Assembly: GCA_009746045.1 (NCBI GenBank)
Contig: RPFO01000219.1
Coordinates: 851,501 to 915,500, forward strand
From: Mesostigma viride
Lineage: Eukaryota; Streptophyta; Mesostigmatophyceae; Mesostigmatales; Mesostigmataceae
Direction: 5' to 3'
Length of the DNA: 64,000 nucleotides
The position numbers and the translations under genes were made by a program. Within the stretch, counting starts at the first letter, position 1. Each line of letters opens with the position of its first letter. Below are positions 24,716-48,904 of this stretch, in pieces. The notes under the pieces were generated by a model. The model did not search any database and was not told the origin of the DNA. It saw nothing but the letters and a program-made list of their open reading frames with translations.

Positions 24716-24728
24716 TAGTCTAAGCTCT

Positions 24729-26570: not shown

Positions 26571-26625
26571 AATATGTGCACATAAAGTCGACATTGTCGA
26601 GTATTTGACAACTTAGGCATTGCGC

Positions 26626-27228
26626 CTAGAAAAAGGTGCCCCATCCGTCGATGTCAAAATCGCCGAAGGAGTACACTCCCTGGTACAGGTCTCCCCTGTA
26701 GTTGGGAGGCTCGCCTGTATACATTTTGGTGTTCCACTTGGCCCCGCCGTTCTCCGCAGCAGCCAGGAACTCCTGCTGGGCCTCAGCCCTCAGGCGCATC
26801 ATTGATACATTGGGAGAGCCCGGAATTTCCGTGCTCTCCACCACCACTCTCGCCTGATTGTCAGGCACGCATTGGTAAGCAGGGTTCAAATCTGAATCGG
26901 GTGGCACCAGATCGATCATGCCATTGCCGAACGCAATGACACCTGCACCCCACTGTGCAGAAGGTCCGAGCAACTCTACATCAATTCTGATGTTTGCAGC
27001 GTGCTCATTTTTGTCGACCATCACATAGGTATGCTGAGAACCGAAAATATCGCTCTGCTCCATTTGTGACAGTGTTAAATTTCGGCAAGCTTGGCTGCTT
27101 GCAATCGACAGGAAATTGGTGACCCCGACAGCCAGACGCGCAAGGGTTATCACTGCAGGTAGAACCCAAAATTTGTCGATAAGGAGTAATGGAAGGGCAC
27201 GACCACCAGTCACTACTATTCGCTTCAC
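26626..27228 (-). CDS. Unknown 200-residue protein with N-terminal hydrophobic segment
   Basis: An intact minus-strand frame starting MKRIVVTGGRALPLLLIDKF. Residues 10-45 are largely hydrophobic (a signal peptide or membrane anchor is possible). A soluble region follows with YVMVDKNEHAANIRIDVELL, NPAYQCVPDNQARVVVE and a Tyr/Gly/Asp-rich end (YRGDLYQGVYSFGDFDIDGW). It is not recognised. It lies downstream of the transposase gene on the same strand, inside the inner inverted repeats. It is the only undamaged frame of any length in this arm, which suggests it is real or recently active. A virion or secreted role cannot be argued from sequence alone. Confidence 0.5.
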   Translation of the reverse strand: MKRIVVTGGRALPLLLIDKFWVLPAVITLARLAVGVTNFLSIASSQACRNLTLSQMEQSDIFGSQHTYVMVDKNEHAANIRIDVELLGPSAQWGAGVIAFGNGMIDLVPPDSDLNPAYQCVPDNQARVVVESTEIPGSPNVSMMRLRAEAQQEFLAAAENGGAKWNTKMYTGEPPNYRGDLYQGVYSFGDFDIDGWGTFF

Positions 27229-27382
27229 CGGACACCTTTTTCAGCTTCCGGTTAAAATTCAGCAAGAGCAGCGGCGATTAGATACTAAATATTGCGTTAT
27301 TGGTTCGTACCGTACCCAGACAAAAATTGTACTAGTGACGCAATTGTACTAGGCGGAATGACAACTGCGCCCGGCAAATAAG

Positions 27383-27598
27383 TATTTATTGCTCCAACCC
27401 CACAAAAAACTTGTTCCGGAGCTGTTCGAAGCGAAGAGCACTGCAAGGGATCGGACCCGAGCCAGATTTGAGTGCGGAACATGGTGGCTGGCCTACCTCA
27501 CTCCGAACATCAATGTGGACCCGGGTTCGAATCCTGTCATTGCTATTCTCTTCGAACAGTTCCGGAACGATTTTTTTTGTGGGGGTGGAGCAATAAAT
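27383..27598. repeat. Foldback element with tRNA-like T-arm
   Basis: Two arms of about 96 bp (27383-27478 and 27502-27598) are imperfect inverted copies: TATTTATTGCTCCAACCCCAC pairs with the complement of GTGGGGGTGGAGCAATAAAT, and GTTCCGGAGCTGTTCGAA with TTCGAACAGTTCCGGAAC. The right arm contains GGACCCGGGTTCGAATCCTG, a perfect match to a tRNA T-loop/B-box. It lies between the transposase gene and the small ORF. Confidence 0.7.
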
Positions 27599-27851
27599 TC
27601 TCGACATTTGCAGAAACAAATGTCGAATAGATTGTGCAAAAAAATATCGAAATCCTTATCATTATTTAAATATACAGCATAAAATTATGTTGCAGTAAAA
27701 AATAACTGTTAATTGAAGGCCGCAAAAAATTATCAACTACCCTTAAACTTGACCACAGAAAGATCTCGAAAAATATATATATATGCGGGCACCTTTTTAC
27801 ACCCTACTGAAGCCCCACTCTAAAGATATAATACGAGCCGAAACTAGGGCG

Positions 27852-27873
27852 TCGTCTACCCGCAGCGAGACCC
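27852..27873. repeat. Element palindrome, single copy
   Basis: TCGTCTACCCG followed by CAGCGAGACCC, downstream of the transposase stop and upstream of the small ORF. Confidence 0.75.
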
Positions 27874-27884
27874 CAATTTCTTGT

Positions 27885-28631
27885 TTAAGTCGGTGCCGGC
27901 CCCTCCGGGGCTTCATCCTTGATCACCAGCGCAGTAAGCCACTTGTCGAGCTCCTTGCTCATCCTGATGTCGGCACACATTCCGTCGCTGCGCACGCGTG
28001 CTTCTAGCCGGAGAGCCGGAGCGACGCAGAGATAGCAATTCACAAGCTCGGGCTGGCGTGACGGTGGCCAATCCTCAACGTTGAGCGTGAAATGCAGGGG
28101 GTCATGCTTATCCCGCTTCCAAATCCGAACGGGAAGAATGCCATTCCCGGCGAGGAACAGCTCCTTCTCCCGTCCGTTCCGGCCCTCGACCCACCTCTCG
28201 AAGTTCTCGTCTAACACGATCGGCCCGGCTTCGCTTACAACCTCAGCCAACCAGAACGGGTGGATGGGATCGTGATCCGTGTCCTTGTCCGATGGAACTG
28301 CCACATAGTCGTGGAGTCTCATCTGCCGGCCCATCGCCTCCCGCTTGTCCTTCAGCTGCTCCCCCCGCGTCACCATGCGAACCGGAGGGTTGGGCTGGCT
28401 CGGTGGCAGCAAACGGACAGTTTTCATCGAGCTTCCTGCATCATTGAACTCGATGATAAACGACCACTCGCTTAGACATCCCTCAAACCGCCCAGCCAAA
28501 CAGGGCGGACAGTAGCAGGAATAGCGCCTAATCATCAAAAGGCCAGGGTCGGACTTGTCCAGTCGCCACCAATGCGCCTGCTTGATGCCAGGCACCTCCT
28601 CCACCTCCGCGCGTCGGCCGGACTCGACGTC
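27885..28631 (-). CDS. Transposase exon 4: C-terminal region
   Basis: The acceptor GATGACAG opens the exon DVESGRRAEVEEVPGIKQA. The sequence runs HWWRLDKSDPGLLMIRRYSC, then YCPPCLAGRFEGCLSEW (C-x-C-x2-C plus a fourth Cys), an unrecognised region with two IWKRDKHDPLHF-like aromatic stretches, and stops after EGPAPT. The C-x-C-x2-C element after a W-x-R block is a usual companion of HGKG-type proteins. Confidence 0.6.
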   Translation of the reverse strand, partial: DVESGRRAEVEEVPGIKQAHWWRLDKSDPGLLMIRRYSCYCPPCLAGRFEGCLSEWSFIIEFNDAGSSMKTVRLLPPSQPNPPVRMVTRGEQLKDKREAMGRQMRLHDYVAVPSDKDTDHDPIHPFWLAEVVSEAGPIVLDENFERWVEGRNGREKELFLAGNGILPVRIWKRDKHDPLHFTLNVEDWPPSRQPELVNCYLCVAPALRLEARVRSDGMCADIRMSKELDKWLTALVIKDEAPEGPAPT

Positions 28632-31600
28632 CTGTCATCAAATAGTTAGGACAAAAAGAATACCGTTCAAGTTAGCAAAATTGACCAAAAATCAATAAAA
28701 CAGGGTATAGCTGCAGAGAGACCCCTTACAAAAAAAAAATTAACGACAAGACATACAGTCAATGATCAAAATTCGACACAGGGTATAGCTGCAGAGAGAC
28801 CCCATTCGAATCATAATAACAACGTACGACAAGATATCAAGTGATCGAAATTCGACACAGGGTATAGCTGCAGAGAGACCCCTTCATACCGATAGAACAA
28901 GCGAAAATTCATACCTAAAAGAAAAGCAACCCATTGACAGTATATAGGGTCTCTCTGCAGAGATACCTTTATTGGGTTTGAATTTTTGTAGAACATCGGC
29001 AGTTGACGTCTTAAAACCTGAAATAACACAAAATTCCGTACCGGGGGTAAAAGGAAGAAGTGGCGAGTGACGTTCTCGGCCCGCGCGCGGGCCGACTCCC
29101 TGCTCGATGTCTTGCCGCCCTGCCAGTTCTGGTTCAAGTAGGCGACTAGCTGGTGGGTCTCAAGTATGTGCTGGTTTTCGGGAATCCTCTGCATTTCCCT
29201 CAAGACGCACTTGCACTTCGCTCCTTGACCATCCACCTCCCCCTTCCCATGCTGCTCCCCCATGTAGTGGAACTCAAAGGCCTGCAGGTCGGGATCCCCC
29301 ATGAGCAGACCGTTAATCTGGTTAATCACGTACCTGGACTTAAACTGCACCGCGCAGTTGTCCGAGCACATGTACAGGTTTCGCACCTCTACCCCTACTT
29401 CTACCCGCAGGGTTTCCAGAATCTTGCGAAGAGCGTATACGAGTGCGCGCTCGCCCCGCTTGATACTGGAATCCCCCAGGAAAAAGAAGACGCGCTTTTC
29501 CAGCTCGCCGTTGAGCCGATAACGCACGATCATGGGCATCAGGATGTGGCTGCGCTTGTGGAAGTACTGCGACTGCAGTTGGACGTAGTTGCTGTTCTCG
29601 TAGTTCTCGGCCCAGTCGCCGTGCACGAGCACGTCCCCCTCTCTCAGATTCTTCTCCCGATCCTTGATTGTATCCGCCTGCGACCAGGCCGTAAAGCAGT
29701 GCACGGTGAACTTGTCCCACCTCTTCAGAATCTCGTCCCGCAGCTCAGCTGGGGTGGACCTCATTGGGACTTGCTCGGGCCGCTTCACCTTCTTCGCCGC
29801 CCTGCCATCGGTCTCGCCCTGTTTCGCAAAGGTCCGCAAAAAGTTTCGATTTGCAATAAAATCGCATTTCGATCAGATAATTGCAACTCACAAAGGGTCT
29901 CGCTGCAGCTATAGGTCACAAAAACAAAAAGTCAACAACAAGAAATAAAATCGAAATCTACTCACCCTCACCCCTCGGGTCACAGTCTGCTCCACCATCT
30001 CAAACTTGAACCAATTCAGAATCTCCGTGGAATTCTTGTCCCGATCACACTGCACCCAGTTATTATGGATGCCGCATGATTCCTCAGGACAGAACCCCTC
30101 CACACACGCCATCTTCAGTATGCGGTGAACCCTCTCCGTCCTCGGCAACCCCATCTTCGTCCTCCACCAGCCTCTCAGAAATGTCGAGGTCTTCCAGGTC
30201 CCGTCCCCGCCATTCATCTTCCCCCTCCCCCTCTTCCATCCCCCCGCCCATTCCGCCCCCTTCACGCAGCCCGTTATCCCTGCCGTCAGTCTCGGCGGAC
30301 ACCGGGCAGTGAAAGTGCTTGATCCAGTCCGTCGAGTGAATGGCTTTCCACATTCCGCAAGTACCGTCCGGCAGTCTGTACTTGGAGCATCCCGCACACT
30401 CCGCGCCACACTTGCAGTTCTTGCCGTGGTTCGCATTGCAGTGCTTGGTCCACGCCCCCATGGCCGACTGCATGGTGACGTGCTTCTCACACGCGCACAG
30501 GTTCCTCTCCTTCCACTTGCCCTTGATGCAATCGGGCGCGTATTTGCAGAAGGTCGTGTAGCCCACGTGAATGCCCACGTCCTTATCATACTGGTCACTC
30601 CTTTTGTTCCAGTACGCGTGCTTTTCGAGAAAGTGATTGTACATGTCCTCCTTGGAGGTCATGTAATAGCGCGCTCCCTCAACGGCGACGAGCACCCCGC
30701 GATTGCCATGACCCTCCCTGCTGTAAGTGCGCTTGACATCCTTCATCTGGGAGGAGGCGCGCGACTCATCATCGTGCATCCACGCGTCCACTATCGCGTC
30801 AATCACGAATTGCGGCAAAGGGCGCCCCTGGCGAGCCTGCGCGTGTCTGAGGTAGTCCAGCTTCTGCTGCCTTCGAATCGCGCGAATTCCGCGAATCTTC
30901 TTGGCGTCCGTCCCCGTCAGCTTCTCCAACTCCGCGGCCGAAAACTCCTTCTCCAAGTCGTCACCACAGTAAAGCGTGGACATCAGCACCATTCTGACGT
31001 CTCTGTCTGGGTCGCTTTTGGTCAGACCATCAAAAAAGCCGTTAATCCGAGCCACCCAGAACCTGTTCAGTTCTGCCATCCGATCCTGATTGTAAAGTTT
31101 TTTCGCCTCCTCATGATACAGCCCGTGACCTAGTTCAGCGGCCCTAGAGTTAAAGCCAGCAATCATCTGCTCGAATGCCGGCCCCCGCCCCTCGGGTTTT
31201 GTCATCGCCTGAGCCGCTTCAAACGCCTTGTCATCGAAAAATTCCCCAATAACCCTCTTGGCTTTCTTGTATTCTCCCGGCCGCTTGACTTCCTTGGCTT
31301 CAGGCTGCGCTGGATTCTGGTTCTCATCTCCGAAAACCCTTTTTGCGCCAGTTGGCTGCTTCGTCCCGGTGTTTAACTTAATTGCACTGAATCCTGGACG
31401 ACCGGACGCAAGGGCGAAAACTCCCACCCGTTCGCGTGCTGCATGCCATGACGACCGGCATAACGAAATCCATGAAAATCGAGTATCGTTGGGAAAAGCG
31501 ACAATTACAGACAAAGTTCGAAAGTGTATCATTTTTACCACGATTGGGGTCTAGCTGCAGCTAGACCCTTAGAGGGGCTTTTTCCGTTAGACGAAAAGAT

Positions 31601-31855
31601 AACCGGATCCGGGTGAACTTAGCATACCCCAACCAAGATTGGGGTCTCGCTGCAGCTAGACCCTTCATTGCGGCGTGCGATTGATACATCACAGACATCT
31701 GATTCATTAATTTTATAGTAACCATAAAGAGGGTCTAGCTGCAGCGAGACCCTTGAATTTAAGCTATTGCTTAATGTGGTTAGAAATGGTCTAGCTGCAG
31801 AGAGACCCCAATAAGGACGAAAAGATTTCAGGTTTTCCTCACCTTCGCGGCTCAT
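27885..31855 (-). CDS. DDE-like transposase with cysteine-rich domain (gene model)
   Basis: Minus-strand exons: 31843-31855 (MSRE), 31438 down to 29972, 29818-29042 and 28631-27885, with GT-AG introns in matching phase. Within exon 2 one frame change near 30.1-30.2 kb is either a short intron or an indel. The product is about 990 residues. Order: Lys-rich N-terminus; helical region; a Cys/His cluster (CKYAPDC, CACEKH, CKCGAECAGC); CPEESCG; a catalytic-type block with GDWAENYENSNYVQLQSQYF, LYMCSDNCAVQFKSRY and HYMGEQHGKGEVDGQG; then SCYCPPCLAGRFEGC. The D-x-x-EN, D-N-x3-QFK and HGKG-x2-DG motifs recur in transposon-derived proteins of many eukaryotes and are inferred to form an RNase H fold. 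It probably moves the 23-kb element or its inner module. Its introns hold nine of the 22-bp palindromes. Confidence 0.65.
28703..28968. repeat. Element palindrome, four copies in transposase intron 3
   Basis: Copies at 28703, 28781 and 28860 are identical (GGGTATAGCTG then CAGAGAGACCC). The fourth, at 28947, is GGGTCTCTCTG then CAGAGATACCT, close to the reverse complement of the first three. Confidence 0.9.
29042..29818 (-). CDS. Transposase exon 3: catalytic RNase H-like region
   Basis: Starts GETDGRAAKKVKRPEQVPM. It has HGDWAENYENSNY (first Asp), FFLGDSSIKRGERAL, MCSDNCAVQFKSRY (second Asp), FHYMGEQHGKGEVDGQGAK (His and acidic residues) and ends RHFFLLPP at the donor GTACGG. The acceptor is AAACAG. 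All the residues expected of this transposon-protein family are intact, so the exon shows no sign of decay. Confidence 0.65.
29895..29916. repeat. Element palindrome in transposase intron 2
   Basis: GGGTCTCGCTG then CAGCTATAGGT. Confidence 0.85.
29972..31438 (-). CDS. Transposase exon 2: N-terminal and cysteine-rich region
   Basis: The acceptor CATGCAG precedes CACGCG; G + CA gives Ala, continuing RERVGVFALASGR. The exon reads through KRVIGEFFDDKAFEAAQAM, RHAQARQGRPLPQFVIDAI, YYMTSKEDMYNHFLEKHAYW and CKYAPDCIKGKWKERNLCAC, then KNCKCGAECAGC, with cysteine spacing like CxC-type domains. An acidic Gly-rich loop follows. The frame moves at about 30.1-30.2 kb to the one reading LKMACVEGFCPEESCGIHNN, which ends EQTVTRG at the donor GTGAGG. 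Confidence 0.6.
31547..31808. repeat. Element palindrome, four copies in transposase intron 1
   Basis: Starts at 31547 (GGGTCTAGCTG/CAGCTAGACCC, a perfect 22-bp palindrome), 31642, 31731 and 31787. The half-sites differ only at the seventh base or by the CTC variant. Confidence 0.93.
31843..31855 (-). CDS. Transposase exon 1 (five codons)
   Basis: ATGAGCCGCGAAG followed by the donor GTGAGG. It ends in phase 1 and matches exon 2 at 31438. The 400-bp intron between them contains four palindromes. An alternative start inside the intron (MVKMIHF, 31541) is open but lacks similarity to anything. Confidence 0.45.
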
Positions 31856-31949
31856 TCTCTTATTAGTTCTCCCAGGACACTCAGATACCTGCATGGCGGG
31901 AATAACAAAAATAACACAGTAGCATTGATAAAATGGTTATCAGAAAATA

Positions 31950-31977
31950 TATATTCATTGAGAATGATAGATTACGG
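31950..31977 (-). repeat. Inner inverted repeat, right copy
   Basis: TATATTCATTGAGAATGAT then AGATTACGG, inverted relative to 26542-26570. Confidence 0.75.
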
Positions 31978-32039
31978 AGGTGAGATAGGCATGCAACATA
32001 AGGAAAAATCCGATAACTGGGAGAATAACCCTGAAGAAA

Positions 32040-32760
32040 TTAATAGTAATCTGACACAGACATCCAAGGATCACGCCAGCGGCACAAGGTACAACTAACT
32101 ATACATCACAAAACTACACGCAGCAACAGCGCTGCCGGCCCACCATGCAGGCCTGGAAGGAATCTAGACCGCATGGGTCGCGACAAAGTCGGCCTGGGTG
32201 CGGCGGAATAACACATCAGCCACGCTGCGAGTGAGGGCGAGTGACAGACGCTGCCGCCAATACGAGGACCACGTGCGGGCCGACCACGGGGCGGTCTGAC
32301 CCTCGAGGTCGAGGCGGTCTTCACGGCGCTGGCAGCACTCGTGGAAAAACTCCGCTGTCTTGGGGCCCATGGCCCCGAACTCCTCAAGGACAAAGGGGAT
32401 GACCCGGTGGGGCCCCACATTGCCGTAGGAGGCAAACTTGTCGCGCTCAGCCACAGCGGCAGCAGCGCCGGCATCCACAGCCGCCCGGAGGATGTGGCGA
32501 CCGGAAAGCGGCCGAGCCACGGAGACATCGATGAGCAGGTGGCAACCCTGCCCGTCGTAGTCAAGCACGGTAATGTCGGGGCGGTGGTTGGGTGAGTAGA
32601 GGGCGGCCCCATCCGCGTCCTCGCACTTAATGGTGGAGTGGGGAAAGACCGACCGAACCATGGCACACACCACCCGGAGGAGAGCGGTATGGAGATAGAG
32701 GAACCAGTTCTGGTTCTGCTGGCCACCCATGCACGCGATGTAGTGCGTCCCAGTAGTATC
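32040..32760 (-). pseudogene. Retroelement C-terminal fragment with nuclease-like domain
   Basis: An open frame (32164-32730, open further upstream) reads MGGQQNQNWFLYLHTALL, NHRPDITVLDYDGQGCHLLI, DVSVARPLSGRHILRAAVDA, then AERDKFASYGNVGPHRVIPF and VLEEFGAMGPKTAEFFHECC. The RPDI...DV...K...Y...P pattern resembles a PD-(D/E)XK-type domain found after the reverse transcriptase in many retroelements; this is recognition by pattern only. No RT is present, so it is a 5'-truncated fragment nested in the 23-kb element. It differs from the family A LINE. Confidence 0.55.
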
Positions 32761-32998
32761 CAGAGCAAGAAAATATATATACTAATACATTTTGCAAAAG
32801 ATTTTATAATATATTGTGAATAGCATGGATTAATTTCCACATACTTTAATAATATGGTATGTTAAAGTATATAGAACCATTATTTAGGAAATCATTTACA
32901 AGAAAAAGTGGTATACAGTATTATTATTTTATAGTTCGGCAATCTATAATAGTAAGACATACCGGATGGCAGGTTCATCAGCGGCCTCCAGGGCTATA

Positions 32999-33432
32999 GC
33001 GTCTCGCTGCAGCGTGACCGTTTGGTGCTATGACTGATTTCAGTAGATGTGCAGAAAAAAATTTATTACCATGACCACACCAGGAATCGAACCCAGAACC
33101 TCATTGTACATTTCTGCATGGTAACGATGTCAACCAAACATCCGAATGTTCCGGGGTAAATTGGCTGGAGGTCGTCTCTTTTTATACCTGCGGCCACAAG
33201 CACGGGTGACGGCATATTGGATGTCGTCCAATCCGCTAGCTTGGTGTCCAAAAAATGGGATCGAGCCTTTGCACCAGCGCCGCGCTTCCAGTTTTCAGTT
33301 CCGTGGGGAGGAACGAGGATGCCACGTTTCCAATTTTTTCAATACCGTTCAGCCCTGTGACGCCGCGTCCGGTTTGCGAATTGCGACCGTCCCATCGCCC
33401 ATCGAAAAAGAAGCGCAGCCGCAGAGAGACCC
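32999..33432. repeat. Two degraded element palindromes
   Basis: 32999-33020 reads GCGTCTCGCTG then CAGCGTGACCG. At 33411-33432 only the right half survives (CAGAGAGACCC). Confidence 0.6.
33066..33135 (-). other. tRNA-like or Pol III B-box-like segment
   Basis: The minus strand contains GGGTTCGATTCC, a perfect B-box, then an 8-bp self-complementary pair (TTACCATG ... CATGGTAA) and a T-run. A full cloverleaf cannot be drawn: the anticodon stem does not pair. It is more likely a tRNA-derived remnant than a tRNA gene. Confidence 0.3.
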
Positions 33433-33454
33433 CATAGCTGAAAGAGGGTAAGCT

Positions 33455-34187
33455 GCCACCTGCATGACGATACCTGCATAACGATACCTGCATAACAATA
33501 CCTGCATAACGATACCCCTGCATAACGAAAGGAAATCGGTCTTCCGCATAAAGAAAAAAGGTGAGCTTTTTCCGCATCGTGGATGGTAGGCTGACAAAAT
33601 TTGTTCTATCAAAAACGGCAACAAAACAGCGCATCCAAGCCGACGACACAGTTAGCCAGCTGGGCGACGACTATGTCTTTGTTGCCATCGCAAGAAACTC
33701 TTTATGTTGCAGCAAGAGTGATAAAAATGTCTGGCTTCCTTCTTTTCGTTGCTAGCTAAACCCTGCAGACATCTCGGTAGAGTCAGCTAAGCCAATCCTA
33801 ATCCACATCTGGCATCCATCCCTTTAGTCTAGTTGCCATGGAGCGTTTCTTGGTCTCGCACATGTCGATCATGGTGGTGCTAGGCTTTCACTTGGGTCAC
33901 CCTTTCCATGTTTGCTATGCCTTTGGTTTGGTTAGGTTATAGGTGTAGATGTGCACATACTGCATTTGCTGCGTTTCTAATCGGTGCTCCTGTTTGATGC
34001 TTTTTTTCCCCTTCATATCGTTTCGACGTTTGCATGCTACCTGCCGGATTATAACATCGGACGTTGCTACCTGCCTGCATAACGATAGTTTGCAAGAAAT
34101 CTTCATTTTGCCGAAACACAAAAAAAGGTGATCTTTTGCCGCAACGTGGATGGTAGGCTGACTAAAATTGTTCTATCAAAACGGCGT
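33455..34187. repeat. Short repeats and a 100-bp direct repeat
   Basis: ACCTGCATAACGAT units repeat at 33462-33525. A block with CGTGGATGGTAGGCTGAC and TTGTTCTATCAAAA occurs at about 33540-33625 and again at about 34095-34187. Nothing coding is recognised between them; a 64-codon frame at 33561-33755 has no known motif. Confidence 0.7.
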
Positions 34188-37100
34188 TTACATGTGGGGG
34201 GTTGCTGGCCTGAATAACTAAATGTGGGGGGGTGCTGTCATGAATGAATACATGTGGGTGTGTGCTGCTACGTATCAATACATGTGGGGGGGATGCTATG
34301 TATAAATACATGTGGGGGGTGCTGCTACGTATCAATACATGTGGGGGGTGCTGCTACGTATCAATACATGTGGGGGGTGCTGCTACGTATCAATACACGT
34401 GGGGGGGTGCTGCTACGTATCAATACATGTGGGGGGTGCTGTTACGTATCAATACATGTGGGGGGTGCTGCTACGTATCAATACATGTGGGGGGGTGCTG
34501 CTACGTATCAATACATGTGGGGGGTGCTGCTACGTATCAATACATGTGGGGGGGTGCTGCTACGTATCAATACATGTGGGGGGTGCTGCTACGTATCAAT
34601 ACATGTGGGGGGTGCTGCTACGTATCAATACATGTGGGGGGGTGCTGCTACGTATCAATACATGTGGGGGGGGATGCTATGTATAAATGCATGTGGGGGG
34701 TGCTGCTACGTATCAATACATGTGGGGGGTCGCTGCTACGTATCAATACATGTGGGGGGGATGCTATGTATAAATGCATGTGGGGGGGTGCTGCTACGTA
34801 TCAATACATGTGGGGGGGTGCTGCTACGTATCAATACATGTGGGGGGGGATGCTATGTATAAATGCATGTGGGGGGTGCTGCTACGTATCAATACATGTG
34901 GGGGGGTGCTGCTACGTATCAATACATGTGGGGGGGGATGCTATGTATAAATGCATGTGGGGGGTGCTGCTACGTATCAATACATGTGGGGGGTGCTGCT
35001 ACGTATCAATACATGTGGGGGGGATGCTACGTATAAATGCATGTCAGGGGGGGTGCTGCTACGTATCAATACATGTGGGGGGGTGCTGCTACGTATCAAT
35101 ACATGTGGGGGGGTGCTGCTACGTATCAATACATGTGGGGGGGTGCTGCTACGTATCAATACATGTGGGGGGGTGCTGCTACGTATCAATACATGTGGGG
35201 GGGTGCTGCTACGTATCAATACATGTGGGGGGGGATGCTATGTATAAATGCATGTGGGGGGGTGCTGCTACGTATCAATACATGTGGGGGGGTGCTGCTA
35301 CGTATCAATACATGTGGGGGGGGATGCTATGTATAAATGCATGTGGGGGGTGCTGCTACGTATCAATACATGTGGCCGGGGGTTGCTGCTACGTATCAAT
35401 ACATGTGGGGGGGCTGCTACGTATCAATACATGTGGGGGGGTGCTGCTACGTATCAATACATGTGGGGGGTGCTGCTACGTATCAATACATGTGGGGGGG
35501 GATGCTATGTATAAATGCATGTGGGGGGGGATGCTACGTATCAATACATGTGGGGGGGTGCTGCTACGTATCAATGCATGTGGGGGGGTGCTGCTACGTA
35601 TCAATACATGTGGGGGGGTGCTGCTACGTATCAATACATGTGGGGGGGTGCTGCTACGTATCAATACATGTGGGGGGTGCTGCTACGTATCAATACATGT
35701 GGGGGGGGATGCTATGTATAAATGCATGTGGGGGGTTGCTGGCATGAATAAATAAATGTGGGGGGTTGCTGGCATAAATAAATGAATGTGGGGGGTTGCT
35801 GCTACGTATAAATGCATGTTGGGGGTGCTGGCATGAATAAATGAATGTGGGGGTGTGATGGCATGAATAAATAAATGTGGGGGGATGATGGCATGAATTA
35901 TTGAATGTGGGGGGTGCTGCTACGTATAAATAAATGTTGGGGGGTGCTGGCATGAATAATTAAATGTGGGGGGGGTGATGGCATGAATAAATAAATGTGG
36001 GGGGTGCTGGCATGAATAAATGAATGTGGGGGGGTGCTGGCCTGAATAATTAAATGTGGGGGGATGATGGCATGAATTATTAAATGTGGGGGGTGCTGCT
36101 ACGTATAAATAAATGTTGGGGGGTGCTGGCATGAATAATTAAATGTGGGGGGGTGATGGCATGAATAAATGAATGTGGGGGGTCATGGCATGAATTATTA
36201 AATGTGGGGGGTGCTGCTACGTATAAATAAATGTTGGGGGGTGCTGGCATGAATAATTAAATGTGGGGGGGTGATGGCATGAATAAATAAATGTGGGGGG
36301 GTGATGGCATGAATAATTAAATGTGGGGGGATGATGGCATGAATAAATAAATGTGGGGGGTGCTGCTACGTATAAATAAATGTTGGGGGGTGCTGGCATG
36401 AATAATTAAATGTGGGGGGATGATGGCATGAATAAATAAATGTGGGGGGTGATGGCATGAATAATTAAATGTGGGGGGTGATGGCATGAATAAATAAATG
36501 TGGGGGGTGCTGGCATGAATAAATGAATGTGGGGGGGGCTGTCATGAATAATTAAATGTGGGGGTGTGATGGCATGAATTATTAAATGTGGGGGGTGCTG
36601 CTACGTATAAATAAATGTTGGGGGGTGCTGGCATGAATAATTAAATGTGGGGGGGTGCTGGCATGAATAAATGAATGTGGGGGGGTCATGGCATGAATTA
36701 TTAAATGTGGGGGGTGCTGCTACGTATAAATAAATGTTGGGGGGTGCTGGCATGAATAATTAAATGTGGGGGGGTGATGGCATGAATAAATAAATGTGGG
36801 GGGTGATGGCATGAATAATTAAATGTGGGGGATGATGGCATGAATAAATAAATGTGGGGGTGCTGCTACGTATAAATAAATGTTGGGGGGTGCTGGCATG
36901 AATAATTAAATGTGGGGGGATGATGGCATGAATAAATAAATGTGGGGGTGATGGCATGAATAATTAAATGTGGGGGGGTGATGGCATGAATAAATAAATG
37001 TTGGGGGTGCTGGCATGAATAAATGAATGTGGGGGGGGCTGTCATGAATAATTAAATGTGGGGGTGTGATGGCATGAATTATTAAATGTGGGGGGTGCTG

Positions 37101-37690
37101 CTACGTATAAATAAATGTTGGGGGGTGCTAGCATGAATAATTAAATGTGGGGGGTGATGGCATGAATAAATAAATGTGGGGGGGTGATGGCATGAATAAT
37201 TAAATGTGGGGGGATGATGGCATGAATTATTAAATGTGGGGGTGCTGCTACGTATAAATAAATGTTGGGGGGTGCTGGCATGAATAATTAAATGTGGGGG
37301 GTGATGGCATGAATAAATAAATGTGGGGGGTGATGGCATGAATAATTAAATGTGGGGGGTGATGGCATGAATAATTAAATGTGGGGGGTGATGGCATGAA
37401 TAAATAAATGTGGGGGGTGCTGGCATGAATAAATGAATGTGGGGGGTGCTGTCATGAATAATTAAATGTGGGGGGATGATGGCATGAATTATTAAATGTG
37501 GGGGGTGCTGCTACGTATAAATAAATGTTGGGGGGTGCTGGCATGAATAATTAAATGTGGGGGGGTGATGGCATGAATAAATGAATGTGGGGGGGTGATG
37601 GCATGAATAATTAAATGTGGGGGGTGCTGGCATGAATAAATGAATGTGGGGTGTGATGGCATGAATAAATAAATGTGGGGGGTGCTGGCA
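34188..37690. repeat. 3.5-kb G-rich minisatellite of about 29-bp units
   Basis: Roughly 120 units. The left half is GCTGCTACGTATCAATACATG with 5-8 G. The right half is GGCATGAATAA(A/T)T(A/G)AATG with 4-8 G, interspersed with TACGTATAAATAAATGTTG units. A run of five or more G recurs in every unit on the plus strand. The array separates the two divergent arms of the 23-kb element. Long frames in it (up to about 500 codons) shift with the G-run length and are not genes. Confidence 0.95.
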
Positions 37691-37752
37691 TGAAAAAAAT
37701 TTGGTTGTGCAATGTTTTTCATTGTTGTGATAGAATTCACGCATGGACGTAA

Positions 37753-38102
37753 GGGTCTCGCTGCGGGTAGACCCTCGGAATTTTGTTTTTGTATTGACGT
37801 AAGGGTCTCGCTGCATCCCTACGAATGTCGACTTTTAATGTTTGCAAGATGGGAGGGGGCTTTCTTCGCTAACCCTAAAAATGATTTGTTTTTGTTTGAC
37901 GTTAGGGTCTCGCTGCAGCGAGACCTTCAGGAATGTATACTTTTTATGTTTGCATGATGGGAGGTTGCTTTTTTTTGCTCACCCTAAAAATGATTTGTTT
38001 TTGCTTGACGTGAGGGTCTCGCTGCAGCGAGACGCCAAAGTTTTGCAATAAAGTAAATGTCCCTTTTAGAATCCACGAAAGGGTCTAGCTGCAGCGAGAC
38101 CC
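37753..38102. repeat. Element palindrome, five copies upstream of the first plus-strand gene
   Basis: Starts at 37753, 37803 (left half only), 37905, 38014 and 38081. Copies at 37905 and 38014 lie in a tandem of about 108 bp that also repeats CCCTAAAAATGATTTGTTTT and TTGACGT. The ATG of the gene is at 38180. Confidence 0.92.
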
Positions 38103-38179
38103 TCCCCATCGTTTTTCTGCCGGCAATTCAGATTCTGAATGACATTTGTGAAACTTGCTTTTTTAATATTGTTCTGCAG

Positions 38180-39392
38180 ATGTCGTCCTCCTATTCCGAT
38201 TCTGTCAAGGCCACTCCCGTTTCACCCAAGATGACGTCGAACACCTCGCCGGACCGAACGGCAACAGAGAATTTTCCTCGGTTGCCGGTCGGTCCCGTAA
38301 ATGCTCTGGCGAGTCCCCCTTGCCCTCCAAGTCTTCCTTGCCCCCCAGCGAGTTGGACAGAATTTTACCCCCCAACTCTCTCGCTGCTGCGTCTCGCGCT
38401 CCGTCCCGCTCTCCGCCCCGTAAGTCTCCATCGCCGCCCCCCAAGTCGGCCGGAGCTACTGCGTCCCGCTCGCCGTCCCGCAAGTCCCCCAAGTCCCCCG
38501 CAACTGCGACCCGTTCGCCGCCCCGCAAGTCCCCCTCTCCGCCCAAAGTTCCCCCCGCTACCGCGTCCCACTCTCCTTCTCGCAAGTCCCCCTCGCCGTC
38601 AACCAAGATCCCCGCAACTGCGTCCCGCTCGCCGTCCCGCTCTCCTTCCCCCAAGTCCCGCTCGCCGCCACCCAAGTCCCCCGCTTCTGCGTCCCGCTCG
38701 CCGCCACCCAAGTCCCCCGCTTCTGCGTCCCGCTCGCCGTCCCCCAAGCATTCCAGTTCTAAGCGTAAGCCTGCTACCGAGTGGGTAGAGGAAGACGACC
38801 ACACCAAAAGCTCAGGAAGCTGAGGAAGTCTATCAATCTGGCTCTTGAGGAGGACGAGCGCGATAAGACTAACGGGAGGCCTGAAGACCCGGACTCGCCG
38901 GTTCGGGAGTCGCGTCGGGAGCTGTTGTCCGATTTGTTAGCAATGGCCGCAACATTTGCTGACGACTACGCGGCTCTCGACAAGAAGGACAAGGAGAAGG
39001 AGAAGGCGGAGAGGAAGGCCATCGAGAAGGCGGAGAGGGAGAGGGTGGAGAGGGAGGAGAAGGAGAGGCTGGAGAAGGCGGAGAGGGAGGAGGAGGAGAG
39101 GGAGTACAAGGAGAAAAAGGCTGCCCAGGAGAGGGAGCACAGGATCCTGGTGGCGAAGCAGAAGGAGGAGGCGAAGAAGAAGACGGAGGCGGCAGCGAAG
39201 GACCTTCGTGCGGAGGAGGCTGCTGTTTTTTTGCAGATGCGACAGGAGAGGATGAAGGCGGACGAGGCCGCGAGGAAGATGGAGGAGGAGGCTGCGAGGA
39301 AGGAGGAGGAGGCTGCGAAGGCGGTTGAGGGGGAGAAGGACGAGAACGTGAAGAAGGGGTGGGCTCCCGAAGGATGTTCAGTCGATTATCAG
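38180..39392 (+). CDS. Exon: SR-like repeats and charged coiled coil
   Basis: The ATG follows CTGCAG. The start MSSSYSDSVKATPVSP shifts frame in a C-run near 38310 to SP/RSP repeats (PPRKSPSPP, SASRSPPPKSP) and again near 38810 to KLRKLRKSINLALEEDERD. Then comes a heptad-like Lys/Glu/Arg helix (KEKEKAERKAIEKAERER and similar) of about 110 residues. It ends CSVDYQ at the donor GTATGT. Confidence 0.5.
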
Positions 39393-42300
39393 GTATGTTT
39401 ATTAATGTGAGACGTACATTTCTCAGATGGCTTTTGAACGGCGTGTGTGTATCGTAGAAAGGGTGGGATTTTATGTCATACATTGATCGTAAGGGTCTAG
39501 CTGCGGAGAGACGTTGACCTAGGAGTTAAGGTTGTTGACGACGACGACGACGATGTGTGGCCTTTTTTTTACTCTTGTTGTCTGCAGCCCTCCACGGTGG
39601 CCATTCTGAAACAGTACCTGGCTCAGGCTGAGTCTGAGTCTGGGGCGAGTCGTAAAGCCGAAAAGGGCTTGATCGGCTTGATCCGCTTTCTTTCGGCCGA
39701 GATAGCGTTTGCAGAGAAGTCCGGTGTCGTCGTGGACCGTCCGGAGTCGGCACACATAATTTGGAAGAACGACCGCCTGGGCCGTCTTGCATTGTTCGAA
39801 GCCACACAGCGAGCCATTCATGGGAAGAGGGTCGTTGGTGACGACATTTATGAGGTTTTGAAGATCGCGCAGTCGTGCATCCTTAATCTGAAGGAGGATG
39901 TCGGACGTTACTTTCCCCGTCGTGCTTTAATATGGTCGACGCTCTTTGATGAGGTTGAAAAGTTCGAGGTCCACACGGGCGTCACATGTCGAGGCTTCCT
40001 ATATGGAAACCTTGAAAATCACTGCGTTGCATCAGCTCTTTAAACTCATGACTGGAGATATGAAAGCGGATTCGAGGGCTTCACTGTCGGAAGATGAAGT
40101 GTTTGATATTGTCAGGAAAGGATTTGTTGACATGTCCAACAGTGACTTTATCGTAATTGTGCCGGGAAGAATGAATCACGTAGGAGGATTGGAGGAGCGC
40201 GCACATGAAGTGATCGCGCATTTGGACATGACAAGAGACCACTTACTGCAATCTTTTGTTAAGTGGCGGACCGACTTTCTTGTCAGCCCGGACGCCAGCC
40301 TTTCGCGGGAAGCGGTCGCTTTCTTTTTGGATTGGGCTGGACAGGTGATCCAAAGTTTCCGGCACCGGGAGGACTTCCATGTTATTCAGACATATAAGCC
40401 ACACCGGGAAGTCGTCCAGGAATGGTTGGATCAAATCTCGTTGGTTGATTGTCTCCAGAGTATCCGAACCAAGTTAGACACGGAGTGGTCTGATTTAGAG
40501 GCGGGAGGCCATTGGCAGTCCCTCGAGTTGTTCTTCGAGGCGGAATTGAGGCGTCAATCTGGAAAAGGAGAGAGCCCATCAAGTGCCGATATGGCCTTTG
40601 GGGAAGATTTTGAGGAGGTGGAAGTTCTACGTTTCGGTACGTTAACTTGCCGATATCGTTTATCGATTTGGTTTGTTTCCATTCCCTGAATAGGGCTCTA
40701 TATGCTGACCAACCTTCATGGTTTGTCCTGTCATATCATGCAGGGGGGCTCCATGCCAGGGGACGTATCGGAGGATGTAACGAATTTGTCAGACTTGGTT
40801 GATAAGGTGGGTGCTTGTCCGTCGAGTTTCCACGAGCATCTTACATGGGGTCTAGCTGCAGGTAGACCCTCACCCTTTTATTGAGACTGACATCTTCGGC
40901 TAATTTCAACGGTGCCCCCACCAATCTGTTGTCTTTTTTCAGGGGGCGGCTGCGGCGATGGCTGTTGACAGTGCTGGTCTTTGGTCTGGACTCGAGATGG
41001 AAATGGTAAGCATTGAACGATATCCGGATGTCTGCATTTCGCCTGAAGTTTTAGTGAGCGCATTATGCGAAATATACAAATGTCGACTAATTTTGATTTC
41101 CAATGAGCTGTCGTATTCGGTGTTGACAGGTGGGGGGTTTGGCCTCAGCAGGCGCTGCCGGAGAGGAAGAAAACGCTGGAGGAGATGAGGATGGGGGGGA
41201 TGAAAACGCTGGAGGAGATGAGGATGGGGGAGACGCTGAGGGAGAAGTGGCTGTGCAGGTACGTTCATCCGCCGCGAGTTCGTGTGATTTTTTTCGTGCT
41301 GAGGGGTATCTCCGCAGAGAGACGATGGTGCAACAATCGAACTGAGGTCAAGTCCCTTCTTGTTGGTTTTTTTTTGTCATGCAGGCGGGGGCTGTCGCTG
41401 GGGGTACTGCGGGGGGGAAGGCGGCGAAGCCCGATTGACTGAGCATGAAAGGGAAAAGCTGGATTCCCGCAAGAAGGTTGCGAAGGATCATATTATTGCT
41501 GTTGGCCTGATCATGCTTAAGTCTCCGCCCGATGGCGTCGATTCGGAGGGACCTGCGGGGTCCGAGTTTCGCAAGTACCTGACACGACTTGAGGCGGAAG
41601 TCGATGCCGATTTCGATACGGAGGTGTTGGGTGCCGCTACCTTTAAGAGTGAATTGGCATATGAATTTGTAAATCTGGTGAAGTCGAAAGCCACCAAGAA
41701 TTTCAAGTGGCAGCCTAAGGAGTACTCAGAGGCAAAGGTTGACAAGATCGAGAAATTCATGAAGGCTGATTTTCGTCGTCGGGCCGCTGAGGGAAAAAGG
41801 GCGCTGAATGCGGTGGCAAAGGCTAACAGTAAGAAGAACGCGGAGGCGAAGGCGGCGGAGAAGGAGGCGAAGAAGGCGGAGAAGGAGAAGGCTAAGGAGG
41901 CCAAGAAGCAGCAGAAAACTGGACAGGTACGATTGTTGTGAAAATTTAGACCTCTCGCTGCGGGTAGACGCTGACTGGCTGCGGGACTTGGTGTTTAGTG
42001 TCAGTAAGGTATTATTCCAACAGAACTTTGTTCGTCCCTGAACAGGATGTCGTGGTCGGCCTAAATATTACTGACTTGAGCAAATCCTGCGGTCCTTTTC
42101 GATTTTTTACTTCAGGATGACGGGGGGACGAAGACGCCACGGTGGAGAAGAAGTTACCTGGTCATGACGCCGTGTTCGCGCTGGTGAAGGATATGCTCAA
42201 GTACTGCTCGAGTAGGCGGATGGCGGACGTCGATGACCTGCCAAACTGGCCCGAGTTCTCCCCCTTTCTTGAGCTGCTCCGGTCACTCAACAAGCTTTTT

Positions 42301-43283
42301 AAGGAGGGGGTGCTCACGAGCAGTGGGAACCCGGACACCGACCCTATCATTGAAAGCTGGAAGCCTTCGAAAAAGGTCGACTCGAACAAGGAGGTCAGGG
42401 ACCAGAACATCCGGAAGGCCAATTCTCTCAGGGAAACGCGTTGGATTCGGCCGGCCGATTTTAAGCAGACCGGATGTTTCAGTATGCGGATCCAGACGGT
42501 CAACGCGCTTATTTTGCCAGAGGCTTTGAGGCAGCGGCGTTTAAACCTTGAAACCATTAAGGAGAACGGCCGCATTCTCCTCAATGCGCGGGACAACGCT
42601 TGCACTTCAAGGTTGTTGTCCCGGTCTGGCAGTTCCCTTTCCAGGCGCTTGCCGAATCTCAACCTGACCTGTTCGACAAGCAAATCTTGTGCATGCCGGA
42701 TTTCGTCAAGTGGCTGAAGATTCACCACGGCGCCAAGATTGACGCGGAGGATGTGGGGTCCAGGTACTTCCGGCCCCTTTCGGATACTGAAGTCGACGTG
42801 TGGCTTAACACGGAGTCCACCACCTCTTTCCTCGCGAGAGGACTTGAGTGGCGTACCTACGCCAGGGTGGACGAGGTGGAAGCAGTTTTGCCTCAGGACA
42901 TCCAGGGCAGTCGGGATGTTTTCAACCTGCTGTGCAATACTGCGATGAAGTCCTACGATCCGAAATTTTTTGAGGAACGGGTACCGGTACCGTATCTGGT
43001 TCTCCGGTACGCGGTGGTGGATGGGAACCACTACTTTAAGGGGTTAAAGTCGTTTCTCAGGGGGCCGGATGGCGGGTGGGGAGAGGTTCGGGCAATGATG
43101 TGCGAGGGTGGGGCGGAGTCCAATTTCGCAAATACTCCTAAGGAGGCGGAGCACGCATTCCAGGACCTGTTGCGGAAATTCCGTGGTGGTTACATGGGTA
43201 CGAATGTCATTCTTCTCAAGGGTGGCGACCTGCTCCCGTCGTGGAGTGAGCAGCGAAATCTACCTAAGCAAAAGAAGATGTAA
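38180..43283 (+). CDS. Large unknown protein 1 of the 23-kb element (gene model)
   Basis: Exons by splice phase: 38180-39392, 39588-40636, 40744-40806, 40943-41005, 41130-41258, 41385-41936 and 42116-43283 (stop TAA). It would be about 1,075 residues once indels are allowed for. Order: Ser/Pro/Arg repeats (SRSPPRKSPSPP type); a Lys/Glu coiled coil (about 39000-39350); a helical region (ILKQYLAQAESES, DYVFVA-like none); two short exons; Gly/Asp repeats (ENAGGDEDGGD); a second Lys/Ala/Glu helix (KKAEKEKAKEAKKQQK); and a mixed domain ending FRGGYMGTNVILLKGGDLLP. No family is recognised. The SR-like, charged composition suggests a nuclear, nucleic-acid-associated protein. At least five apparent frameshifts, mostly in C or G runs, mean decay or sequence error. 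Confidence 0.5.
39493..39514. repeat. Element palindrome in intron
   Basis: GGGTCTAGCTG then CGGAGAGACGT, in the intron 39393-39587. Confidence 0.85.
39588..40636 (+). CDS. Exon: helical region of unknown protein 1
   Basis: The acceptor TCTGCAG precedes PSTVAILKQYLAQAESES. It continues ALFEATQRAIHGKRVVGDDI and YFPRRALIWSTLFDEVEKFE, then one base shift near 39985 to METLKITALHQLFKLMTGD, REAVAFFLDWAGQVIQSF and YKPHREVVQEWLDQISLVD. It ends EEVEVLRF at the donor GTACGT. Composition is ordinary globular; no motif is recognised. Confidence 0.5.
40744..41258 (+). CDS. Three short exons of unknown protein 1
   Basis: 40744-40806 (GSMPGDVSEDVTNLSDLVDK), 40943-41005 (GAAAAMAVDSAGLWSGLEME) and 41130-41258 (VGGLASAGAAGEEENAGGDE and more Gly/Asp/Glu). 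Each is in frame with GT and AG at its edges, and exon lengths are multiples of three. The intron 40807-40942 carries a palindrome at 40848. Confidence 0.5.
40848..40869. repeat. Element palindrome in intron
   Basis: GGGTCTAGCTG then CAGGTAGACCC. Confidence 0.9.
41304..41325. repeat. Element palindrome in intron
   Basis: GGGTATCTCCG then CAGAGAGACGA, in the intron 41259-41384. Confidence 0.75.
41385..41936 (+). CDS. Exon: Lys/Ala/Glu helix of unknown protein 1
   Basis: After an apparent slip in a G-run it reads LTEHEREKLDSRKKVAKDHI, DSEGPAGSEFRKYLTRLEAE, FVNLVKSKATKNFKWQPKEY and a basic helix AEAKAAEKEAKKAEKEKAKE. It ends KTGQ at the donor GTACGA. Confidence 0.5.
41950..41971. repeat. Element palindrome in intron
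   Basis: TCTCGCTG then CGGGTAGACGC; the outer GGG of the left half is lost. Confidence 0.75.
42116..43283 (+). CDS. Exon: C-terminal domain of unknown protein 1
   Basis: Reads EKKLPGHDAVFALVKDMLKY, then DDLPNWPEFSPFLELLRSLN and KQTGCFSMRIQTVNALILPE. After one base shift near 42600 it continues LHFKVVVPVWQFPFQALAES, FVKWLKIHHGAKIDAEDVGS and NHYFKGLKSFLRGPDGGWGE, and stops after LPKQKKM. It looks globular and conserved, but no family is recognised. Confidence 0.5.
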
Positions 43284-43299
43284 GCTATCTATTTTGGCA

Positions 43300-43477
43300 G
43301 GGTCTAGCTGCGGGTAGACCCTCGGAATTTTCGTGGTTGTTTTTTGTGTGCGCTTCAAGTTTTTTGCGAGGGTCTCGCTGCAGCTAGACCCTCTCCTTTT
43401 TTTTGTTGGAATTTTCGTTGCGTATTGTCGGCCGTTTCTTTTTCGAATTTTGTTAGGGTCTATCCGCAGCTATACCC
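43300..43477. repeat. Element palindrome, three copies between the two plus-strand genes
   Basis: Starts at 43300 (GGGTCTAGCTG then CGGGTAGACCC), 43370 and 43456. They lie between the TAA of unknown protein 1 and the ATG at 43526, as do the five copies upstream of 38180. Confidence 0.92.
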
Positions 43478-43525
43478 CTCGCCTTTTATGACTGAGTTTT
43501 GTCGTTGCTCGCTCGATGTTAATTG

Positions 43526-46045
43526 ATGTCGCAGGCGGTGCTGACCGGCAAGCTGGAGAAGCTGTTCGACATCGCCAAGGGGGCGAATTCGGAGGACTTA
43601 GCCGTGGCGGATCGTACGCTGGGCCAGGCGTTGCTTGACGTGTGGAACTACAACAAGCTATATCTATACGGCAAAGTCACGCGTGGGAAGGGCCACTATA
43701 TTGCGGATGGCCACTATACCAATCTGCTCACGTACATCCTCCCGGCTATGCGGCAAGCGGGGGGAAGGGAAGGGAATGTGGAGCCGGCAGGGTGGATGTA
43801 CACGAGGAGGAAGCAGAAGGAAAGAAAAAGCCGGCCCACAGCATTGCTTCAGTGCATTCCGCTTACAGTCGCACGCTGGCCAACACGTTTCTCCGTCTGA
43901 CACAGGAGCAGACTGATGATCCTGCCTCAACGAAACCCGCGCCTGAGGAGGTGATGATGCAAAGGTGCAAATTCGCGAATGCAGAGGGGGAGAAGAAAGG
44001 CCAGAAGGTCTCTTGGACTTCTTTCAGGAACTTGGCCAGCCTTCCTATGATGGACGCCGTGATCGATTGCATCATGAGCTGCCAGGTTGGACCGGAAAAG
44101 CTCACCAAGTTGGTGGAGATCGCCAAGGATGTGCTGGAGTGCCTGCGGCTGACCATTTGCGCCAGATTCAAGGAGGATGTGACGCTGGAAGCGCAATGCA
44201 AGGACGCAAATGGCAAGGAGTTTGTGGCGTCTCATATTTTCGAACTCGTCTTCAATCTCCATCCTCTCCTCGGCCGGTCGGCAGGCAGGAGATTGTGGCC
44301 AGATACCGGGAATTTTGGGATGTGGCCGTCATCATAACGAGGAACATCGCCTACCTTCTTAAAGCCAAAAAACACGCCGCACATCTGAGGATTCCGAGAA
44401 AGGATCTCATAAGTGGCAAGATCGACTTTCAGGAGATTCTGCTAAAAGAGAGCGAGGACAAGACGGTGGGTTTGGCACTTTTGGCTCCGGAAGCGTTCAG
44501 GAAGTACGCTAAAAAGTTGGATTACTCGAAGGGGGGTGAAGGAGGCGGCGATGAAGGGGCCGGTGAAGGGGCTGGAGAAGGGGAAGGGGAAGGGGAAGGA
44601 GACGGAGGCGAAGAAGGAGGAGGAGGCGAAGGAGGAGGAGGAGTGGGACGTGTGTATGAGTGGCAGAGTGTGGACTGGGGCCGTCGCCGGGTCTGGTTTT
44701 GCTGTCAGGTCCTCGGTGATGATGATGACAAGTCGCTCGTCAAGCAGGTGGCAGGCGAGGTTGCCTCAGCTTCAGCCCACCCTTTCCCTTGGGCAGGTCC
44801 CTTCCGTGCCTGAGCCTGCTGAACTTGGCGAACATTTGGGGTGATAAGTGGAGTAACTTTCAGAGGTGGTGGGCGTTCGGTCCTTGCCCGCCAGAATCGG
44901 ACATTCCCCAACCGGGCGGGATCTACGATCATGTGCTGAAGGCTTGCGCCCAAGAGTTTTTCTCCAGGTTCGAACCGATGGTGATCGTGTTTGGTACCAG
45001 ACGGAGATTAAGGGGTTTCAAGAGATAGTGGAAAGGATCGGGAAAGGGAGTGAATTGTGGGAGCGGCTTGAACAGGGGGAAGGTGATGGGGGGCCTAGGC
45101 TCGGAAGGGCGAAGAAGCGAAAAGCTTCCCACGAAGCTGGGGGATTGTCCGCCGTGGTGGAGAGGGATGACCAACAGTTGTTGGAGGGAGGGGATGGAGG
45201 GGATGGAGGTCCGGCAGGAGGGTCTAACCGCGGAGAGACCCCCGTCGAGGTGAGAACGCAGCAGGCCGAACAGATGACGGGGCCTGAAGGTGATTCGGAT
45301 CCGCCTGCGGCGAAGAAGCCCGCTTCTCAAGTGACTCGACGGGCAGTCGTGTCACTTGTTGAGGATGATGGAGGTGGGCCTTCCAAGCCTGCCGCGCCGC
45401 AGCCCGTTTTTCAGGTTCCGAAGAAGCAGCTTCGGGTTCCCTTGCCGACTCTGCCCACCCCGGCGCCTCTGCCCAGTTCTCAGTACCGAAGAAGCAGCTT
45501 CGGGTTCCCCCGCGACTCAGGCCATTTCTCAGGTACCGAAGAAGCAGCTTCGTAAGCAACTTGTGGCAGTGGCTGATTCGGACGACGATGCTGAGGAGGA
45601 GGAGGAGGAGGAGGACGACGATGCTGAGGAGGAGGAGGGGGAGGAGGAGGAGGAGGAGGAGGAGGAGCAGCACGTTGCTACCAAGAAATCCGCCAAGGGT
45701 GGGAAGGCTGCGGAGCACGTTGCTTCCAAGAAATCGGCCAAGGTGGGGAAGGCTGCCGAGCCTGCCCTGCCTCAGAAACGGCGTCGAAAAGCAGTTGTGC
45801 TTTCAGATTCGGACGATGAGGATCGAGGAGAAGGAGGAGGAGGATGGCGGCGGAGAGGAGGAGGACGGGGGAAAGGAGCGCGTTGCTTCCAAGAAGTTAC
45901 CCAAGACCGCGAAGACTGCCAATGTTGCCGAGCCCGCCAAACCCGCCCCGGCGCCTGCCCCCCACCCCCAGACGGGGTCTACCTGCGAGCAGAGGTCGAA
46001 GGAAAAGGCCAAAAAGGCTAAGAAAAAATCTGCGAGTGAATTCTG
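43526..46045 (+). CDS. Large unknown protein 2 of the 23-kb element, main part
   Basis: ATG at 43526 (MSQAVLTGKLEKLFDIAKGA). Following one frame change near 43800 it reads SYSRTLANTFLRLTQEQTDD, then SWTSFRNLASLPMMDAVIDC and LEAQCKDANGKEFVASHIFE. After another change: RQEIVARYREFWDVAVIITR, NIAYLLKAKKHAAHLRIPRK, a Gly/Glu/Lys-rich stretch, FSRFEP and KGFQEIVERIGKGSELWERL. The C-terminal third is acidic and basic in turn, with three VPKKQLR repeats near 45.41-45.55 kb, a poly-Glu/Asp block and KRRRK. The palindrome copy at 45220 is translated inside it. About 800 residues. Unknown family; likely nuclear by composition. It is interrupted at about 46.05 kb. Confidence 0.45.
45220..45241. repeat. 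Element palindrome inside coding sequence
   Basis: GGGTCTAACCG then CGGAGAGACCC; read in frame as GGSNRGETP of unknown protein 2. It is the only exonic copy seen. Confidence 0.8.
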
Positions 46046-46067
46046 GTATGTAGAGTGTTTTTGTCTC

Positions 46068-48890: not shown

Positions 48891-48904
48891 TTAAGTTTTT
48901 CGCT

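Follow-up and report, generated by a model that had tools for sequence, protein, structure and literature searches.

Transposases are usually thought to recognise an element by its two ends. In bacteriophage Mu, an internal activation sequence and operators bind the transposase and a regulator far from the ends and act both in transposition and in gene control, while the retrotransposon gypsy carries an insulator with a reiterated protein-binding motif, an array of Su(Hw) sites. For piggyBac, the partial text of PMC7351741 describes how the cysteine-rich domain of the transposase binds, as a dimer, to a palindrome-like 19-bp repeat, and for piggyBat that of PMC11707139 describes a third, internal transposase site that restricts activity. 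In this study we focus on a 64,000-nucleotide stretch of the streptophyte alga Mesostigma viride (assembly GCA_009746045.1, contig RPFO01000219.1, positions 851,501 to 915,500), referred to below as the window, which contains a 23.3-kb DNA transposon with some 25 copies of a short palindrome in its interior. According to part of the text of PMC6947507, the assembly of M. viride strain NIES-296 measures 441.8 Mb and contains 66% repeats; the transposon is not mentioned there.

The locus shares features with each of these systems and differs from all of them. As in piggyBac, the palindrome may be read by a dimer, and a Cys/His-rich stretch, for which DNA binding is putative, precedes the catalytic region of the transposase as seen in P0005, an annotated M. 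viride protein of 797 residues. The 19-bp palindromes of piggyBac are part of its ends, whereas the present element has about 25 sites of 22-24 bp in its interior, the good ones all at least 1.7 kb from either end. Moreover, piggyBac and piggyBat target TTAA while the element makes 4-bp duplications of varied sequence, which sets it apart from the piggyBac superfamily. P elements, according to the partial text of PMC7776569, likewise have short internal sequences beyond their terminal repeats, as well as short deleted derivatives; the present element differs by its dispersed palindromes and by its 4-bp duplications, against 8 bp in the P element superfamily, to which it was therefore not assigned. 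The Mu sites form a single compact cluster, in a phage, and the gypsy insulator is a single compact array bound by a host protein, in a retrotransposon. Finally, the introner elements of Amoebophrya have intron-associated inverted repeats too, which according to the partial text of PMC7789003 form a hairpin from the two ends of the intron. The palindromes of the present element lie in the interior of introns, occur in intergenic and apparent coding DNA as well and show no hairpin covariation, and an introner element was rejected.

Occurrence of the palindrome in the window and in the genome

The full palindromic site is 24 bp long (RGGGTCTMNCYG/CRGNKAGACCCY), or 22-24 bp as described. A sequence-only reading of the window had listed 25 starts of a palindrome said to be repeated about 26 times, none of them outside the element. 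Scored by mismatches to the strict 22-mer GGGTCTMGCTGCAGCKAGACCC, the motif or one half of it was recovered at all 25 starts, and a further weak site was found at 27145 (5 mismatches). The sites are real and clustered: about 25 palindromes lie between 27145 and 45220, all of them within the element (26156-49411). Among the 25 reported sites, mismatches numbered 0 (n=5), 1 (n=3), 2 (n=6), 3 (n=2), 4 (n=5), 6 (n=3; 37803, 41304 and 41950) and 7 (n=1; 33411), so that 21 of 25 have four at most; 37803 and 33411 are single half-sites, the latter with an identical single half in 6 of 7 other aligned loci. The confinement to the element also held, since the window outside 27145-45220 contains no match at up to 5 mismatches and a single one at 6 (47650). 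Eight order-2 Markov sequences of the length of the window gave, combined, no match at up to 4 mismatches, one at 5 and two at 6.

As had been read from the sequence, the sites are mostly in introns and gene-upstream gaps: nine in introns of a minus-strand gene, seven in inferred introns of a divergent plus-strand gene (two of whose seven introns have no palindrome) and five upstream of the ATG of that second gene. Two more are intergenic, one follows the minus-gene stop codon and one is in apparent coding sequence. The claim that the introns share no other sequence was not fully right, as some neighbouring sites (28703/28781/28860, 37803/37905/38014 and 31547/31642) are within diverged local duplications.

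The genome (439.9 Mb, 2243 contigs) was scanned with the pattern GGGTCTNGCTGCAGCNAGACCC, allowing up to two mismatches. This returned 3052 sites, while the control pattern, reversed and not complemented, returned none. Among the matches listed (contigs C1, C2 and C16), all 50 perfect places are in DNA homologous to the element; an equal density in host DNA, which the sequence-only reading had named as the outcome that would speak against it, was not seen. In 216,843 bases around the perfect places and one further copy, 194 sites matched the degenerate consensus with up to 4 mismatches, of which 190 are in element homology, two in a short derivative and two in an unrelated repeat; the near-matches at C2:4450597 and C2:4460385, outside element homology, were discarded as two copies of one unrelated repeat. 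The scan pattern matched 14 times in the window copy and 16 times in the copy at C2:4443648 (loci L008-L010). No stretch in IMG/VR exactly matched the degenerate palindrome pattern, and the literature searched (titles and abstract openings, for the library and terms used) contained no paper on the palindrome or on the Mesostigma element.

The sites were thus found in element DNA at all genome places checked. Because these places all lie in the element or a derivative of it, the sites are probably read by an element-specific protein. Binding by a host protein, such as a silencer, an insulator factor, a genome-defence protein or a host factor exploited by the element in the way that gypsy exploits Su(Hw), appears improbable to us. 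Element DNA is indeed what the sites mark, and their dispersed clusters look like insulator arrays; however, a host protein should normally bind in host DNA as well, and no such target was seen among the 50 perfect places listed, of 3052 sites. Furthermore, the sites are more conserved than the largely exonic flanks of the introns (see below), which would be unexpected if they were kept for a host silencer.

Half-site independence and conservation of the palindromes

The left and right halves of 22 sites (27145, 27852, 33411 and 37803 being omitted) agree at 189 of 242 positions, while random re-pairing of the halves gives a mean of 189.4 (sd 4.0). Counting wobble pairs, 197 positions agree, against 197.9 after re-pairing. 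The halves therefore combine at random, as the sequence-only reading had supposed when it preferred a dimeric DNA-binding protein to an RNA hairpin, a preference that this test supports. Without covariation, neither an RNA hairpin nor a cruciform accounts for the symmetry of the sites, while independent halves are accounted for by a protein dimer that reads one half with each subunit. Hairpins with a 9-bp stem and a UGCA loop, acting in transcripts for splicing or export, could in principle be formed by every site, and the gene models, if correct, place most sites in transcripts; the independence test nonetheless ruled this explanation out, intergenic sites and sites in a geneless derivative exist, and we leave it next to no probability. 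The sites show no significant polarity along the element (AG/CG in 16 left against 11 right halves of 21 sites, P 0.18).

Conservation was first measured in loci picked through palindrome hits, with 2-8 aligned loci for each of 25 sites (27145 included, 37803 excluded). Compared with the window copy, they show mismatches at 26 of 4147 core bases, with 14 gaps, as against 386 of 13656 bases and 311 gaps in the 40-bp flanks on either side. More than half of the core differences (14 of 26) come from one site: at 37905, a version that differs from that of the window is common to 7 of 8 loci. Variable columns amount to 19 of 600 in the cores against 189 of 1984 outside, and the mismatch per bin of four columns is 0.3-0.7% in the core and about 1-9% outside, the last two core columns being in a mixed bin (3.3%).

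Since these loci had been chosen by the palindrome, we ran the test again on 20 copies of our choice among the 115 transposase matches, intron 1 being aligned in 17 of them. In intron 3, mismatches amount to 2/1920 in the cores, 285/6135 in the remaining intron and 27/4058 in the 120 bp beside the intron; the corresponding values for intron 1 are 2/1563, 176/5043 and 61/3744. Pooled, this makes 4/3483 for the cores, 461/11178 for the remaining intron and 88/7802 for the DNA beside the introns. Variable columns are rarer in the cores both in intron 3 (2/96 against 54/311, P 3e-5) and in intron 1 (2/96 against 27/308, P 0.024), these P values being optimistic because the copies share ancestry. 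The contrast between core and intron is large in both introns, and the conservation of the cores exceeds that of the mostly exonic DNA beside them. Intron 3 contains five palindromes in 13 copies and four in seven. Loss of the palindromes in other copies, the second outcome that would have counted against the sequence-only reading, was not seen: they are retained in the copies examined, and it is the intron around them that drifts.

These data also bear on the idea that the palindrome maintains its own uniformity, either as a tiny selfish repeat or as a hot spot for a homing endonuclease or for gene conversion. Its many copies per element, some of them within local duplications, would fit. Conversion would however homogenise the sites, and most positions instead retain their own version across the aligned copies; it would also drag the flanks along, while the conserved footprint stops sharply at the palindrome. 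We regard this idea as very unlikely.

The element, its genes and a geneless derivative

The element is bounded by terminal inverted repeats (TIRs) that start with GGGTGGTCCCACGCGGAATGGGG. TIRs and a 4-bp target duplication were found in all four elements with both ends, three large and one of 586 bp (TGCC, CTAA, AGGG and CCCC); CTAA and AGGG belong to the two other large copies, at C1:7872255 and C2:4443648, which have similar ends. Polinton/Maverick elements make a 6-bp target duplication, and the 4 bp seen here led us to set this class aside. No Pfam family for the Polinton/Maverick genes (DNA polymerase B, capsid, packaging) was found at E up to 1 within a narrow scope, the minus frames of 26400-33402, the plus frames of 39500-49302 and single open reading frames (ORFs). 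The features of the element are collected in Table 1.

Table 1 Features of the transposon and its palindromic sites (window positions).
Feature	Positions	Strand	Details
DNA transposon, 23.3 kb	26156..49411	.	TIRs and 4-bp target duplication TGCC flanking both ends
Left terminal inverted repeat	26156..26219	+	
Right terminal inverted repeat	49339..49411	-	
Site just past minus-gene stop codon	27852..27873	.	
Putative transposase gene	27885..31900	-	introns 31439-31842, 29822-29966, 28635-29041; catalytic-like motifs DWAENY / SDNC..QFK / HGKGEVDG
Four palindromes, transposase intron 3	28703..28968	.	starts 28703, 28781, 28860, 28947
One palindrome, transposase intron 2	29895..29916	.	
Four palindromes, transposase intron 1	31547..31808	.	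starts 31547, 31642, 31731, 31787
Two intergenic sites	32999..33432	.	32999 (3 mismatches), 33411 (one good half)
G-rich tandem array, ~30-bp units	34197..37690	.	separates the two divergent genes; other copies have the array too
Five sites upstream of plus-gene ATG	37753..38102	.	37753, 37803, 37905, 38014, 38081; 37803 a half-site in the window copy
Second, divergent multi-exon gene, Lys/Glu/Ser-rich product	38180..49110	+	inferred introns 39392-39587, 40636-40743, 40807-40942, 41006-41130, 41258-41385, 41928-42116, 43280-43533
Seven palindromes, inferred plus-gene introns	39493..43477	.	39493, 40848, 41304, 41950, 43300, 43370, 43456
Palindrome in apparent coding sequence, GGSNRGETPVEV reading	45220..45241	.	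0 core mismatches, 8 aligned loci

The exon borders of the minus-strand gene agree by eye with P0005, which is 96% identical to its first long exon over 88% of the exon. The transposase exon has at least 121 genome matches, at least 115 of them long, with 88-100% identity; 100 of the 115 have no internal stop, and the copy count is a lower bound as 115 of 990 candidates were scored. Outside this genome, the only relatives of the catalytic exon found besides P0005 are P0001, from a 4.4-kb contig with the source tag lgn (46% identity), and P0004 from Prorocentrum lima (45% over 29% of the query), a patchy distribution that spans a dinoflagellate and a streptophyte alga. A peptide pattern matched 20 stretches of IMG/VR, none of which was confirmed as a relative. 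The transposase pieces matched no Pfam family and no PDB sequence (E up to 10), and P0004 gave one phage Pfam family below the cut-off (E 0.14). Structure models were of low confidence for both the catalytic exon (mean pLDDT 46.5) and the whole protein. The catalytic-exon model has an RNase H-like order of strands and helices, and the invariant D86 and D171 are consistent with such a fold, as are the acidic residues of HGKGEVDG; Foldseek returned no match at E 0.001, the best being at 1.8e-3 with a TM-score below 0.5, and the weak matches comprised RNase H, RuvC and PIWI together with unrelated folds. The putative transposase may be called DDE-like and no more than that.

The introns of the second gene were placed by eye at GT-AG borders, from sequence alone. 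In the window copy this gene has frame breaks and private insertions and may for this reason be inactive; its ORF at 45335-46021 gave seven low-complexity Pfam matches, all below the cut-off. Three stretches of the window (31955-32768, 46062-47855 and 48273-48890) are skipped by the other aligned copies and are probably private nested insertions; in the first of them, the ORF 32164-32781 resembles, by our reading, the C-terminal part of a LINE. The 3.5-kb G-rich array between the two genes reaches a GC skew of 0.65 and is palindrome-free. On both sides of the transposon, what we read as LINE-like copies (22346-23892 and 50034-52000) stand head to head, 86-100% complementary over separate aligned stretches, and the ORF 20097-21167 beside the left one matches RVT_1 (reverse transcriptase). 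A tandem repeat with an 8-bp step occupies about 23837-24720 and is near-perfect from 23997.

The short derivative is a 586-bp TIR element at C1:7893012-7893597 (L007:8013-8598), about 100 bp past the end of a full copy. Its first 63 bp correspond to the right end of the window element (89%) and its last 131 bp to the left end (95%), while in its middle only short stretches around two palindromes match the large element (blastn, E up to 1e-3). Both palindromes read GAAGGGTCTAGCTGCAGAGAGACCCTTT, and each ends one of two internal half-units that are identical at 97 of 132 positions outside the palindrome and at 24 of 24 inside. As 586 bp leave no room for the genes and introns of the element, these two sites serve neither the splicing nor the expression of those genes. 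The derivative thus favours a DNA-level role in transposition, while the clusters near both gene starts keep gene control alive.

Gene control is indeed what an operator or enhancer would provide, in which an element-encoded dimeric factor switches the two divergent genes and affects transposition only through their expression. The four sites in transposase intron 1, the five upstream of the second-gene ATG and twelve more in the introns of both genes point that way, as do the outer 1.7 kb on each side and the tandem array, all without a good site. The geneless derivative nevertheless retains two palindromes, a perfect degenerate site (45220) is within apparent coding sequence, and some 25 sites per element exceed the need of an operator. 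We consider this explanation possible, though doubtful.

A candidate role for the palindromes

Our favoured explanation, held with moderate confidence, is that the palindromes are cis-acting sites on element DNA for an element-encoded homodimer, most likely formed by the transposase or its second-gene partner, with one subunit on each 12-bp half-site (RGGGTCTMNCYG). A homodimer of either gene product would be the simplest reader. It would load at many internal sites, mark the DNA as belonging to the element, help to build the transposition complex or to regulate it and, as a secondary task, control the element genes. The interior sites may thus mark the element, aid complex assembly at a distance, restrain transposition when the copy number rises, or regulate the two genes. 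A cis role on element DNA is favoured because a geneless TIR derivative carries two palindromes; we infer the identity of the binder, its homodimeric state and transposition as its main role. This evidence narrows in part the list of roles first proposed from the sequence, in favour of action in cis on element DNA, be it as a transposase site, an operator or a self-tag.

Several observations weigh against this explanation. The large element has no good palindrome near its ends: in the copy at C2:4443648, the closest to the left end lies 1.7 kb away, with a weak one at 1.0 kb, and the closest to the right end about 1.8 kb away. The sites are thus not terminal sites of the kind cleaved by transposases. 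Each of the two genes has a palindrome cluster just within its start, a placement that is compatible with gene control too. No DNA-binding domain was identified, with no Pfam family and low-confidence models. The intron-1 stretch has four palindromes in 16 of 20 copies, one in one copy and none in three, and intron 1 gave no alignment in three of the 20 (L062, L065 and L066). Lastly, the geneless derivative is known from one example, and its CCCC duplication is weak as it falls within a C run.

A bolder version, which we think rather unlikely, is distributed self-recognition combined with copy counting by an element-made dimer on roughly 16-25 internal sites in each copy, or about 3000 in the genome. 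If true, internal sites rather than ends would determine which DNA is mobilised, and any site-bearing DNA, even a geneless derivative, would be read as self. More copies would also titrate the protein and so damp transposition. Beyond this version, the element belongs to a multi-copy family of a streptophyte alga in which about two dozen interior sites are more strictly conserved than the sequence next to the introns. In a DDE-like family without Pfam match, this offers a testable case for a role of internal sites in element recognition or copy-number control.

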